The translations under genes and the position numbers were made by a program. A stretch of 30,573 nt of DNA from a virus, in the IMG/VR virus record IMGVR_UViG_3300037156_000005, positions 1 to 30,573 of that record. One strand, given 5' to 3'. Positions 181-7,364 of the stretch are shown here, piece after piece. Below the pieces are notes generated by a model, which saw only the letters and a program-made list of their open reading frames with translations, had not been told where the DNA came from and ran no database searches. The first letter of the stretch is position 1. Each line of letters starts with the position of its first letter.

Positions 181-1130
181 GTGGTGAATAGCTCAACCCG
201 CATTGCGCAGGGTTAGCGCCAACCTGGTATTGGCGAGCTATCTTGATCTGGCACAAGCACAATAGGCCTGAGATCCAGCAAATGTAATAATTGGGCTTTA
301 AACGGTCTGGATTAAGATGGGTCGCTAGAATTGCTTGATGTTGATAGAGTAATCAGCGAATTGAATACGGACGTGGAACTCGTCGCCGGAGACGTAAACG
401 GCACAAATTTTAAACGCTTTTTAAATCTGAAGTTGTTATTCGCATGCCAAGTAAAGGGATTGAGTTGCCGGCAGTTTGCGTGAATATCTGGGTTGCTATG
501 GTGATGTCAATCAGGCGCTGATCTGATCAATCATGTGTAAAGTCTCTTGGCAATGACCAGTTAGACTCTGGTTACTTGGCAGCCGAATAACAATTACACC
601 GAATATGACTCTAATGTAACGGCAGCATGCGGGATTCCAAATCCTTGCAGTGTGGGTTAGAATCCTACGAGTCATGCCAAACACCGATTGCAAGTCGGTT
701 CAACCTGTAAAGTTTGCCCGGAGTCCTCCTAACTCCTGCGGTCAGGGCGCAATACAGGAAACTTGCTAGCCAAGGGCATCTTCACCTGTTGTGCTGGTAG
801 TCGCGCCAGTGGCGAAAGAGCGATAGACTTGAGATGCGTGATTTAGGACGCCAGCCCGCAGATGCGGAAATCGTCTTTATCGGAAAGAATCCAGTCATCG
901 TGTTGGTATGTGATGTGCCAAGGGGATAGATACAAAGTGGATTCTTTACCGATGCAGATGAATGCGCAGGCTGATGCGATAATCATGAGATGGAGAGATC
1001 ACCCGGTGTAGCGATACGGTGCGGGTGTAGGGGCTGAGATGGGTATGGTTAGGTCCCCGGTGATTTATAAAACGAGGCGACACCACCAGCGCGCCTATCC
1101 ACTCAATGCCTGAGATCAGCACGGGCCATC
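181..1130 (+). ncRNA. Candidate giant structured noncoding RNA (GOLLD/ROOL-like) with embedded tRNA
   Basis: About 950 bases without a credible protein gene contain many complementary segments read by eye. A three-way junction has a 7-bp closing stem 188-194/235-241 and arms 195-199/210-214 and 218-222/230-234. Hairpins lie at 510-522 (ATCAG/CTGAT) and 555-575 (7 bp). A possible H-type pseudoknot has 704-708/754-758 crossing 710-715/759-764, with 716-719/745-748 and 720-724/732-736 nested inside. A 15-bp helix with one bulged A pairs 879-893 with 938-953 and encloses hairpin 903-908/916-921. Helix 998-1006/1057-1064 has one bulge, and 1075-1079/1092-1096 closes the 3' part. The tRNA-Trp lies at 605-679. 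GOLLD and ROOL RNAs are long structured phage or prophage RNAs often found beside tRNAs; membership here is inference. Start is set by the promoter; the 3' end is uncertain and transcription may continue to the terminator at 1492-1521. The open stretch 316-481 has no ATG and was not called a gene. Confidence 0.55.
605..679 (+). tRNA. tRNA-Trp (anticodon CCA)
   Basis: A full 75-nt cloverleaf can be drawn. The acceptor stem ATGACTC (605-611) pairs all 7 bases with GAGTCAT (669-675), followed by discriminator G676 and an encoded CCA (677-679). T8 and A9 are followed by a D stem 614-617/625-628 with GG in the loop. The anticodon stem is 630-634/642-646 with loop TTCCAAA and anticodon CCA at 637-639. 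The T stem 652-656/664-668 carries loop TTAGAAT. G73 fits tryptophan identity. Deviations: the top anticodon-stem pair is C-T, and position 56 of the T loop is A instead of C. It lies inside the structured noncoding region, so it may need processing from a longer transcript. Confidence 0.8.
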
Positions 1131-1175
1131 TGCGTCAAACCTTTTTGATTTATCCAATTGCAATGGAGCTTAAAG

Positions 1176-2969: not shown

Positions 2970-3584
2970 ATGACGCCCGAGCAGCAAGAGCTGTTTGATC
3001 AGCTCACTCAGTTGCAGCAACGAACGGCCACAGGCGTCCTGGCTGGAATGACTCAGCGCGCCGCGTATTACGCTGCTGGCGGCAAGGCCGACACCGATGA
3101 ATCCGCCGATTCCAGTTGTTCTCAGATCTTGAGTAACATAAAGGTAAAAGCATTCATGGACTCAATGAAACGTCAAGCTATTTCTGACGCGATTATGAAC
3201 CGTGACGAAGCTATGTCGATTCTCACTCAGTTGGCACGCGGAAACCTGGTTGACATCGTTAAATTCCGGACTACCCACGTCGGCCAGAACGCCGAGAATG
3301 GCGACGACGTACACCAGACCACCTGGACCATCGACGAGTCACTGCAAGAAACCGACCCAGAGAAATTAATCATTATCTCCGAGCTGGAAGTCGGCAAGAA
3401 TGGCCCGAAGATCAAGCAACACTCCAAGGCTGCGGCCATTGCACTGTTAGCCAAAATGCAGGGCTGGGAGTCCGCGCAGAAGGTTGACCACCTGTCCAGC
3501 GATGGCAGCATGAGCGGCCCGACGCGGATTGAGATTGTGGCGCCGTCCATGACGCCTGTCGTAGCCGATAAGGACGATGCTTGA
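2970..3584 (+). CDS. terS: Terminase small subunit
   Basis: A 204-residue protein of the Terminase_2 type. An N-terminal helix-turn-helix region (MTPEQQELFDQLTQLQQR... MTQRAAYYAAGGKA) is followed by a repeat-entry motif (SNIKVKAFMDSMK), the AIMNRDEAMSILTQLARGNLVDIV block typical of the family, and a C-terminal AAIALLAKMQGWE segment. Small subunits form rings that bind the packaging site and hand DNA to the large subunit. The stop overlaps the large-subunit start by 4 bases. The start is not certain: ATG 2970 gives the usual family beginning, while ATG 2940, 10 codons earlier, has a better GAGGTGA ribosome site. Confidence 0.9.
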   Translation: MTPEQQELFDQLTQLQQRTATGVLAGMTQRAAYYAAGGKADTDESADSSCSQILSNIKVKAFMDSMKRQAISDAIMNRDEAMSILTQLARGNLVDIVKFRTTHVGQNAENGDDVHQTTWTIDESLQETDPEKLIIISELEVGKNGPKIKQHSKAAAIALLAKMQGWESAQKVDHLSSDGSMSGPTRIEIVAPSMTPVVADKDDA

Positions 3585-4993
3585 GCACTCTACGCATCGA
3601 GATGCCCCCCAAGATGATCCCGAGCTTTGCGCCGGCTCGCGGATCCCTGCGTTACCGGTGCTGGCGTGGCGGTCGTGGCTCCGGCAAGTCATTCAACGTC
3701 GCCAAGATGGCTGCCGTCTGGGGAGCCGTTGAGCCGCTGCGCATCGTCTGCGCCCGAGAGCTGCAAAACTCGATCAAGGAGTCATTCCACGCCGAGCTGA
3801 AGAATGCCATCGAGTCATGCAAGTGGCTGAAGACTCAGTACGACGTTGGCGCCGACTACTTGCGCCATAAAACCAATGGCACTGAATTCATCTTCAAGGG
3901 TCTGCGTCACAACATTGAGGCCGTCAAGTCGATGGCTCAAGTTGATCTGCTGATCGTTGAAGAGGCTGAGACTGTCCCGCATTCAAGCTGGGTCGACCTG
4001 CTTCCAACCATTCGCGCAGCCGGATCAGAGGTGTGGCTCATCTGGAACCCCAAGCGCCCCAACAGCTGGGTTGCCGAGAACTTCGACAACGGCACGCCAC
4101 CCCGCTCCCTGGTGACCAGCGTCAACCACTCTGACAATCCATGGTTCAGCAAAGAGCTTGAAGAACAGCGCCTGCACGACAAAGAGGTCATGCCGGTCAA
4201 CCTGTACAACCACATCTGGGAAGGCGCCTATCTGCTGGACGACGACACCAGCGTCATCAAATCCGCCTGGGTCGAGTCAGCCATTGATGCCCACCTTCTT
4301 ATCCCTGAGCTTGAGGATGGCCGCGCCGCTTTGGGCTTTGACGTTGCCGACGACGGCGCAGACCTTTGCGCTACCGTATTGCGCAAGGGCTCTGTGGCTC
4401 GATCTGCTGATGAATGGCATGGTCGCGAAGATGAGCTGTTCAAATCATGCATACGCGCCTACCACGACGCTCAGGGCGCTGGAGCGCACATCGTCTATGA
4501 CAGCATCGGCGTTGGTGCTGGTTGCGGCTCAAACTTCAACGTGCTCAACAGGGATCACCCGAACAACCGAGTCACGCACGACGGCTTCAATGCTGGCGGC
4601 AAGGTGCTGCGCCCTGAGGCCCTGTATGGTCACACGAAGATCAAGAACAAGGACTTCTTTGCCAACATCAAGGCGCAAATGTGGTGGGATGTCGCGGATC
4701 GCTTCCTGTTGACCCACATGGTCATCGAGTCCATCAAGAACGGCACGGTTCCTCCGAAGTTCAAGATTGAAGAGCTAATCAGCATCGACAGCACCATCAA
4801 GCACCTGGCCAAGCTGAAAATGGAGCTGTGCACGCCGCTGCGTGACTTCGACAATAACGGTCGCGTCAAGGTAGAATCCAAAAAGGACATGAAGAAACGT
4901 GAAGTGGCATCGCCAAACCTGGGAGACGGCTTTATCATGGCCTACGCTCCGATCCGTCGCGGATTGAACATCAACGCAGAGAACCTTCGATAA
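3581..4993 (+). CDS. terL: Terminase large subunit
   Basis: A 470-residue packaging ATPase/nuclease. Walker A is GGRGSGKS (residues 30-37) and Walker B with the catalytic acidic pair is LLIVEEAE (123-130). A coupling-type segment follows at VWLIWNPKRP (151-160). The C-terminal RNase H-like nuclease shows acidic residues in LGFDVADDGAD (about 251-261) and VYDSIG (305-310), with a late aspartate in GDGFIMAYAP. It drives DNA into proheads and makes the headful or site-specific cut. TTG 3581 is preferred as start: AAGGA lies 7 bases upstream and TTGA overlaps the small-subunit stop; ATG 3602 is the alternative. The stop overlaps the portal start (TAATG). Confidence 0.96.
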   Translation: MSTLRIEMPPKMIPSFAPARGSLRYRCWRGGRGSGKSFNVAKMAAVWGAVEPLRIVCARELQNSIKESFHAELKNAIESCKWLKTQYDVGADYLRHKTNGTEFIFKGLRHNIEAVKSMAQVDLLIVEEAETVPHSSWVDLLPTIRAAGSEVWLIWNPKRPNSWVAENFDNGTPPRSLVTSVNHSDNPWFSKELEEQRLHDKEVMPVNLYNHIWEGAYLLDDDTSVIKSAWVESAIDAHLLIPELEDGRAALGFDVADDGADLCATVLRKGSVARSADEWHGREDELFKSCIRAYHDAQGAGAHIVYDSIGVGAGCGSNFNVLNRDHPNNRVTHDGFNAGGKVLRPEALYGHTKIKNKDFFANIKAQMWWDVADRFLLTHMVIESIKNGTVPPKFKIEELISIDSTIKHLAKLKMELCTPLRDFDNNGRVKVESKKDMKKREVASPNLGDGFIMAYAPIRRGLNINAENLR

Positions 4994-6591: not shown

Positions 6592-7364
6592 TGATTAAGC
6601 GCCGCCGCGCAGTTCTGCCCGACTTCAAGCCAAACGCTGGAGTCCGGGCAGAATACCGTGCAGAACTGAACCGGCTATTGCGCGAAGCCCGCAATGAGGT
6701 CGTCGCGGCTGTCGCCGACTATTGGCAAGCGCCGCAGCCTGTCGCCATGGATGCCGCCCATGACTTCCTTGGCCGAATGATTGATAAGGTCATCGGCAAA
6801 TGGATGACCAGCCTGGATACCCTCCCCCAGCAGATTGCCAAGAAATTCGTCGGCCAGACCAAGGCCGGATTGGATCGCAACCTTAGTGCGGCCCTGAAGA
6901 AGTCTGGCTTCACTGTTGACCTTCAGCTCACCGACTTCACCCGTCAAGCCATGCGCGAATCGGTCGGCATGAACGTTGGCCTGATCAAATCCATCCCTGG
7001 CGAGTACCTGGGCGACGTGCAGAAATACGTCTGGGAATCGGTAGAAGCTGGCTTCGATCTCAAAACATTGACCGACAACCTCGACCACGCCTATCATATC
7101 GGCAGAAACCGCTGCAAGCTGATTGCGCGAGATCAGGCAAACAAGGTGCATGCCGTCATGGAGCAGGCTCGACGCAAAGAGCTTGGCATCAAAGAGGCCA
7201 TCTGGCGCCACTCGGCAGCAGCGAAAGAGCCGCGTAAATCACACGTAGCTGCTGACGGCAAAAAGTTTGACATTGAAAAAGGGATGTACTTGGATGGTAA
7301 GTGGGTATTGCCAGGCCAGGAGATCAATTGCGGTTGCACCTCTAAGGCAGTTCTTGAATGGTAA
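6591..7364 (+). CDS. Head morphogenesis protein, Mu gpF-like
   Basis: A 257-residue protein of the Mu F-like minor head family (PF04233). The family domain occupies roughly residues 140-255, with CKLIARDQANKVHAVMEQAR, WRHSAAAKEPRKSHVAADGK and the cysteine-bearing end PGQEINCGCTSKAVLEW. In related phages the protein is a low-copy component near the portal needed for head completion. The ATG at 6591 overlaps the portal stop (TGATG); a TTG one codon earlier is possible but unnecessary. It overlaps the next gene by 7 bases, indicating tight translational coupling in the head module. Confidence 0.9.
   Translation: MIKRRRAVLPDFKPNAGVRAEYRAELNRLLREARNEVVAAVADYWQAPQPVAMDAAHDFLGRMIDKVIGKWMTSLDTLPQQIAKKFVGQTKAGLDRNLSAALKKSGFTVDLQLTDFTRQAMRESVGMNVGLIKSIPGEYLGDVQKYVWESVEAGFDLKTLTDNLDHAYHIGRNRCKLIARDQANKVHAVMEQARRKELGIKEAIWRHSAAAKEPRKSHVAADGKKFDIEKGMYLDGKWVLPGQEINCGCTSKAVLEW

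Follow-up and report, generated by a model that had tools for sequence, protein, structure and literature searches.

A chain of RNA modules behind a promoter and around a phage tRNA gene, one of them belonging to a widespread RNA family with a conserved shell and exchangeable inserts

The window (the whole stretch of viral DNA that was analysed, 30,573 nucleotides) starts inside a 46-kb viral contig, L004, with identity over the 1,500 bases compared. Close to this start, a noncoding region of about 1 kb lies between leftward early genes, including a helicase gene, on its left and rightward terminase and portal genes on its right. A preliminary description of the sequence had reported no credible protein gene in positions 181-1130. 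We agree, as the longest ORF has at most 60 amino acids and 0 of the 6 ORFs of at least 40 amino acids match a PHROG family; a protein-coding reading of the region was dropped because these ORFs are without families. The transcription start predicted for the head of the region also held up, since a promoter at 146-174 places the start near 181. The promoter stretch is kept although the sequence downstream of it differs, with 137-184 being 91.7% identical in viral contig L262 and 5-189 being 93.5% identical in L264. The tRNA gene reported at 605-679 was confirmed as tRNA-Trp(CCA) and sits cleanly between two modules. The RNA of 181-1130 had been described as structured and does fold better than 20 of 20 dinucleotide shuffles (z = -3.1). 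Rfam recognised the tRNA alone in the window, including at permissive thresholds for GOLLD, ROOL, OLE, tmRNA and riboswitches. Behind one promoter (146-174), the locus strings together RNA modules and a tRNA, with the following features.

146-174, + strand: sigma-70-type promoter (TTGACA-17-GATTAT), start point about 180-181.
183-258, + strand: module A, a three-way junction (189-194/235-240, 195-199/210-214, 218-222/230-234), based on homologues and a compensatory change.
355-404, + strand: module B, two hairpins (370-373/381-384 and 385-388/399-402), based on comparison with P1 and IFTN2.
433-593, + strand: module D, constant ends TTGTTATTCG-CATG ... CAGC-CGAATAACAA (433-442/584-593) with a variable helix (447-453/573-579) and an insert inside.
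605-679, + strand: tRNA-Trp (CCA), found by ARAGORN and by Rfam (46.3 bits).
681-880, + strand: module E, a conserved structured stretch with outer helix CCTGT/ACAGG, 76-77% identical in L262 and L264.
879-953, + strand: module F, a 15-bp helix that contains a bulged A and has a variable insert as its cap; the helix is kept in L264 and L263.
951-1136, + strand: module C, member of a new family (model R1, 44.8 bits, E = 3e-10), with closing stem 951-960/1127-1136, first hairpin 965-967/976-978 (loop 968-975), insert 980-1107, second hairpin 1108-1112/1122-1126 and loop-loop helix 970-975/1115-1120.
980-1107, + strand: insert of module C, whose own ends are conserved: TAATCA (980-985) and TAAAACGAGGCG...CGCCTAT (1067-1098).

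Directly 3' of module C lies a 97-aa ORF (1176-1469) with a signal-peptide-like start and no PHROG or Pfam family. Past this ORF, at 1492-1521, a terminator-like hairpin was scored for the minus strand, and a second promoter with identical hexamers and spacing (TTGACA-17-GATTAT) at 1547-1575 heads the next small ORF.

A sensitive BLAST search against 50,697 phage records matched separate pieces of the region, not one homologue. Module A (183-258) was matched in Pseudomonas phage Medea1, module B (355-402) in P1 and Bordetella phages directly before tRNA genes, and both ends of module C (946-978 and 1108-1130) together in P1, ZC03, AH02 and Erwinia 59; the 5' end of C alone was matched in further phages (D3, CUS-3). 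The order of the modules differs in L005, where C is immediately upstream of A. Viral contigs L262-L265 have the promoter and module B in common with the window, plus most of the other modules. For three or more modules of the window, the homologous phages have the same ends and different contents.

The three-way junction that had been described at 188-241 is exact; it is conserved in Medea1 and three viral contigs, and in L263 an A-U pair has become G-C by a compensatory change. Module A is 96-97% identical in Medea1, L005 and L006, and is also present in L263. The slot that A occupies in the window and in L263 holds a C-type element in L264 and L265 and a third sequence in L262. Module B has counterparts of 81-83% identity in P1 (L008) and Bordetella phage IFTN2 (L012), lying there immediately before tRNA genes, and its first stem occurs as GACG/CGTC, GAGG/CCTC and GCGG/CCGC. 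The ends of module D are constant in L262-L265, and its inner helix occurs with different sequences (CCAAGTA/TACTTGG, GGTCACTG/CAGTGACC and GGTCACC/GGGTGACC) and is imperfect in L263. The insert of D differs among the window, L262, L263 and L264, i.e. there are three other insert sequences besides that of the window. No tRNA was found at the tRNA-Trp slot in the homologous contigs L262-L265: L262 has a short open frame there and L264 a sequence with parts resembling a tRNA, and in L263 nothing could be recognised. In L264 the slot (about 3695-3770) has the look of a degenerate tRNA, with complementary ends GCCCAAA/TTTGGGC and a TTCAATTCC arm, and ARAGORN makes no call there.

Three further helices of the preliminary description fared differently. 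For the possible pseudoknot at 704-764 in module E, of which positions 797-870 are nearly invariant in comparison with L262 and L264, the outer helix CCTGT/ACAGG was the sole part examined; it becomes CCTGC/GCAGG, a compensatory change, in both contigs. The 15-bp helix of module F (879-893/938-953) is present with its one bulge, and its pairs are kept with other letters in L264 (AAAGCATCATG/CATGATGCTTT) and L263 (GGTTAGCGTG/CACGCTGACC). However, a stem equal to it or longer arose in 4 of 40 shuffles of the 950 bases, so the support for this helix comes from the comparison, since a stem of such length is not beyond chance. The 8-bp bulged helix at 998-1064 was not upheld, as it falls inside the variable insert of C, where 979-1110 folds no better than shuffles (z = +0.5).

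Window positions 951-1136 have the features of the R1 family, with 10 closing pairs, 3 of 4 and 5 of 5 pairs in the two hairpins and 6 of 6 loop-loop pairs. Alignment A1 contains 38 C members with short inserts, a set picked partly for pairing, and 94.9% of the cells of the whole structure are paired in it. The order of elements in A1 is closing stem, linker AAU, hairpin GCGC-AGGCUGAU-GCGC, insert, hairpin GCCGG-AGAUCAGCA-CCGGC and closing strand. Pairs changed on both sides were seen at 8 of 9 positions of the closing stem and 4 of 5 of the second hairpin; there were 114 cells with double changes vs 33 in shuffles, and 0 of 500 shuffles reached any of the measures. Sliding the partners by 1-3 columns reduced the paired cells from 95% to 30-45%. 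Among elements picked by the conserved hairpins alone, closing positions 2-7 pair in 92-98%, compared with 47-81% when the partners are shuffled. G-U pairs occur in the loop helix and in the stems. The shell of C, i.e. the predicted closing stem, two hairpins and loop-loop helix, is well supported by sequence comparison.

The loop-loop helix was also assessed in elements picked without using loop complementarity, and 155 of 173 of these have 5 or 6 loop-loop pairs. In the canonical type of C both loops are almost invariant (GCUGAU/AUCAGC), and this near-invariance proves nothing about pairing by itself. R1 also matches an element with the loops GUCGAU and AUCGAC, which is found in L264 and L265 in the slot of the window's module A. 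When a pattern with free letters in the loop triplet was used, CGA was the sole strongly enriched triplet among those tested, and of the CGA-type sites whose scaffold is complete, 15 of 15 have the matching sequence, GUCGAU, as first loop. In 8 sequences of the joint alignment A2, two loop-loop pairs are changed on both sides; the first hairpin covaries too. The GUCGAU/AUCGAC change is probably one ancestral double change inherited by the subfamily, and we therefore count it as one event or few, yet it is exactly compensatory. When the compared loci were searched openly for scaffolds whose kissing loops have other sequences, most of the matches were due to chance.

The insert behaves very differently from the shell. 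Inserts of at least 20 bases from 141 elements with distinct flanks fell into 117 unrelated clusters, 103 of them with a single member; the typical length is 74-77 bases and the range is 12 to about 300. Homologous sequence on both sides of inserts that cannot be aligned was seen in 18 pairs of loci; between D3 and L121, for example, the flanks are 98-99% identical and the inserts unrelated. The insert position adjoining the second hairpin is fixed, being A in 95%. The inserts fold modestly (median z -0.8) and lack notable ORFs; a few of them (L122, L261, L090) contain a tRNA or a tRNA remnant. A search for antisense matches of the inserts to phage DNA, made in the compared loci with incomplete masking, gave no clear case and no phage gene as target; its strongest matches came from further copies left unmasked and from false positives in coding sequence. 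The window's insert belongs to a subtype with the ends TAATCAG...ACGAGGCG...CGCCTATCG and very different interiors between them, which also occurs in CUS-3, Hafnia Meifeng, Aeromonas 62AhydR11PP and viral contigs. The same ends are found outside the canonical C shell in L003 and in L266-L268, the latter having a different outer shell. Because the conserved ends of the window's insert recur inside another outer shell, the scaffolds are nested as well as chained.

Phages P1, D3 and CUS-3 carry members of the C family, as do prophages of Beta- and Gammaproteobacteria and more than 100 viral contigs. Searched with an exact 21-mer taken from its 5' end, C had hits in more than 100 viral contigs (at least 120) among the matches listed. 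A 20-mer hit more than 100 bacterial contigs (at least 119) among the matches listed, nearly all from Beta- or Gammaproteobacteria, a few of these hits being coincidences with coding genes. Exact 21-mers also matched a conserved coding gene of Xanthomonadaceae, and these loci, which are without the second hairpin, were left out. The P1-type element was found in 1,208 of 5,426 E. coli genomes, with no annotated feature under any of the 40 matches listed; the genome scan with R1 used strict filters, so the prevalence of C is a lower bound. No Rfam family matched the C elements searched at the gathering threshold, or further elements at E up to 1. Conserved 15-mers of C were absent from the papers searched, few of which were subscription papers, and in these papers we found no description of the exchange of unrelated inserts in one compensated shell. 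The C family is thus an RNA class missing from Rfam that we have not found described, and an earlier description is possible. A CRISPR-like array near 6843 (minus strand) of L186, a Halomonas genome, has a spacer-sized stretch with the head of C (GAGTGAATGCGCAGGCTGATGCGCACG), which suggests a past encounter with a C-carrying phage.

Promoter-like sites lie upstream on the same strand at 35 of 135 C loci, compared with 2-6 in the three other orientations, and terminators lie downstream at 37 of 135 loci, many of them 20-40 nt past the element, compared with about 8% of random stretches. In L126 and L133 the promoter would start transcription beside the closing stem. The strand of C is weakly biased relative to the neighbouring genes (upstream + 76/- 54, downstream + 73/- 57), so one role may not fit all C loci, and for the same reason a leader or terminator was rejected as a general rule for C. 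Association with tRNAs was likewise rejected as a general rule, with about 10% of elements being within 1 kb of a tRNA vs 1-2% of random positions. Some single neighbourhoods can be recorded here. Directly downstream of C in Salmonella phage IME207 are two tRNA genes (L018 2747-2831 and 2841-2913) that are absent from the phage record; in Pseudomonas phage PS-1 the Rfam Proteo-phage-1 RNA (L016 2274-2353, 63.7 bits) lies about 150 nt upstream of C; and Bordetella phage IFTN2 (L012 2741-2960) has a C-like closing stem (TTGATGGTG/CGCCATCAA) and GCCGG hairpin with altered loops, a partial repeat (GATGGTGAATGCGCGGG) inside, and module B and then tRNA-Arg downstream.

The closest known RNA to C is STnc100 (RF02076), a phage-borne sRNA of Gammaproteobacteria. 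In E. coli O157:H7 EDL933 11 copies of STnc100 are listed, most of them transcribed and one seen on a Northern blot (PMC5331693), and its described homologue PasD was found with target RNAs by RIL-seq (PMC13192938). The STnc100 model gave no match to the C elements searched. A separate element in P1 scores 33.9 bits with this model, below the gathering cut-off of 47, and R1 gives 21 bits (E = 0.002) on this STnc100-like copy. P1 (L008) has two C elements and the STnc100-like element at 3285-3422, 3714-3818 and 3975-4102, within about 700 nt between dmt and tciA, and none of the three has an RNA annotation. Weak R1 matches with a C-type closing stem were found in the K-12 prophages Qin (at dicF-dicB), Rac (at kilS-kilR) and e14, and these elements look STnc100-like.

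L420 21453-21583: scaffold-like element of K-12 between dicF and dicB.
L419 8262-8393: scaffold-like element of K-12 between kilS and kilR.
L418 6261-6386: scaffold-like element of K-12 in e14, overlapping the annotated ORF ymfH.

Cutting by RNase III at the dicF-dicB element was considered and found no support, as the site reported for RNase III generates the DicF 5' end (PMC10448788).

We propose, giving it about an even chance, that the locus makes a promoter-driven noncoding transcript of tandem modules and a tRNA, in which C, and probably D and F, are scaffolds with cassette-like inserts and the shell presents the insert as a small RNA. The transcript would be about 0.96 kb long. In C, and probably in D and F, the constant ends would fold into a compact body holding an insert that is swapped like a cassette. 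The body of C would have a closing stem arranged like the acceptor stem of a tRNA. The D-arm position would be taken by a hairpin of 4 bp with a loop of 8 nt, the place of the anticodon arm by the insert, and the T-arm position by a hairpin of 5 bp with a loop of 9 nt, which abuts the closing stem; the two loops would pair. Judged from aligned sequences, the closing stem, hairpins and loop-loop helix and the variability and exchange of the insert at fixed loci are the firm part of this proposal. The function of C is what we infer: the shell would protect the insert and present it as a phage small RNA, and the insert would give specificity by binding RNA or protein of the host or of a rival, as a sponge, antisense RNA or decoy. 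Such a role would explain the rapid turnover of inserts, and it is drawn from that turnover and from analogy to PasD, the relative of STnc100. The moderate structure of the inserts, the failure to find an antisense phage target and the weak strand bias count against the small-RNA reading.

The selection on the shell extends down to a compensated loop-loop helix and the contents turn over completely. This pattern is that of a carrier whose specificity changes, and it offers a lead in the search for phage RNAs that act on hosts or competitors. More tentatively, and leaning somewhat against it, we suggest a general RNA display system in phages of Beta- and Gammaproteobacteria, in which a constant kissing-loop shell would carry unrelated cassette inserts, shells would be strung and nested in one transcript, and the inserts would be fast-evolving effectors against RNAs or proteins of hosts or rivals. 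C is a structured RNA in the well-studied phages P1, D3 and CUS-3 with no Rfam match or annotation in the records examined, and counting its P1 variant alone, about a fifth of the complete E. coli genomes have it.

The main rival to the small-RNA reading is a leader or processing role, which fits some loci and which we judge unlikely overall. C would then be a cis-acting leader, either for processive antitermination like the HK022 put RNA or as a cut-site mark on long phage transcripts. C does lie directly before a gene or tRNA in the window, AH02, Erwinia 59, PS-1 and D3, and it heads an early or late operon in a UTI89 prophage, in CUS-3 (between Q and S) and in Aeromonas (before terminase); in K-12 the relatives sit in the dicF-dicB and kilS-kilR intervals. 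However, this position fits part of the loci, given the weakly biased strand relation to neighbours, and in Jedunavirus BUCT_49532 nothing lies close downstream on the same strand. A leader would also have no need for a completely changing insert.

It is quite improbable that the conserved hairpins are DNA-level recombination or boundary sequences for the exchange of pieces, with the RNA fold as a by-product. In favour of this reading are the cassette-like exchange of inserts between constant ends, the tRNA or tRNA remnant found as insert in L122, L261 and L090, and the annotated boundary sequences that flank the CUS-3 element on both sides. However, the closing stem changes its sequence and keeps its pairs, and is therefore no sequence-homology site; G-U pairs are present, and the orientation of promoters and terminators follows the RNA strand.

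The preliminary description had suggested a relative of GOLLD or ROOL, i.e. one giant cage-forming RNA, and the size, phage origin and tRNA of the region fit this. GOLLD and ROOL have a conserved body and a linker in which homologues are hardly alike, and tRNAs are sometimes present in the GOLLD linker (PMC12286853). However, a scan of 1-1500 with the Rfam GOLLD, ROOL and OLE models gave no match at E up to 10, and there was none in the window at the gathering threshold. Moreover, other phages have single modules or a different order of modules, and no phage was found with the whole kilobase conserved as a unit. We consider this reading very improbable; the region is a mosaic of modules each found separately elsewhere, instead of one giant fold. 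The broader suggestions of a structured noncoding phage RNA locus with a tRNA inside, and of a new class, were borne out, the latter by the C family without an Rfam match. That this is an ordinary tRNA gene in a long functionless intergenic region, as the recognition of the tRNA alone by Rfam would allow, is hardly credible given the compensatory conservation in A, B, C, E and F across phages.

Among known systems, GOLLD (RF02032) and ROOL resemble the window in being large phage noncoding RNAs near tRNAs with a conserved body and variable linker, whereas the window matches neither model and its small modules recur independently. The HK022 put RNA is, like C, a phage RNA in operon leaders; R1 has no match in the HK022 stretch 24000-32000, and to our knowledge the put RNA has no exchangeable insert. 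The tRNA has a layout like that of C, with a stem, a short linker, a 4-bp arm with an 8-nt loop, an insert, a 5-bp arm abutting the stem and a loop-loop contact. However, C differs in having six Watson-Crick loop-loop pairs, a 9-nt loop in the T position and a stem of 7-10 pairs or more. No regular encoded CCA end was seen in C elements, and the tRNA-like shape is a match of layout, mimicry being no part of our claim. STnc100 is the nearest: comparison of the Rfam consensus with A1 gives the same layout, with an UGGUGAAU closing stem, a first hairpin, a variable middle and a GC-rich hairpin abutting the 3' closing strand. Like C, it is carried by phages, and it is transcribed; its loops are unlike those of C, and insert exchange is undescribed for it in the literature examined. 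C ties STnc100 and prophage regions of K-12, e.g. dicF-dicB, to one architecture, which is testable in laboratory strains.
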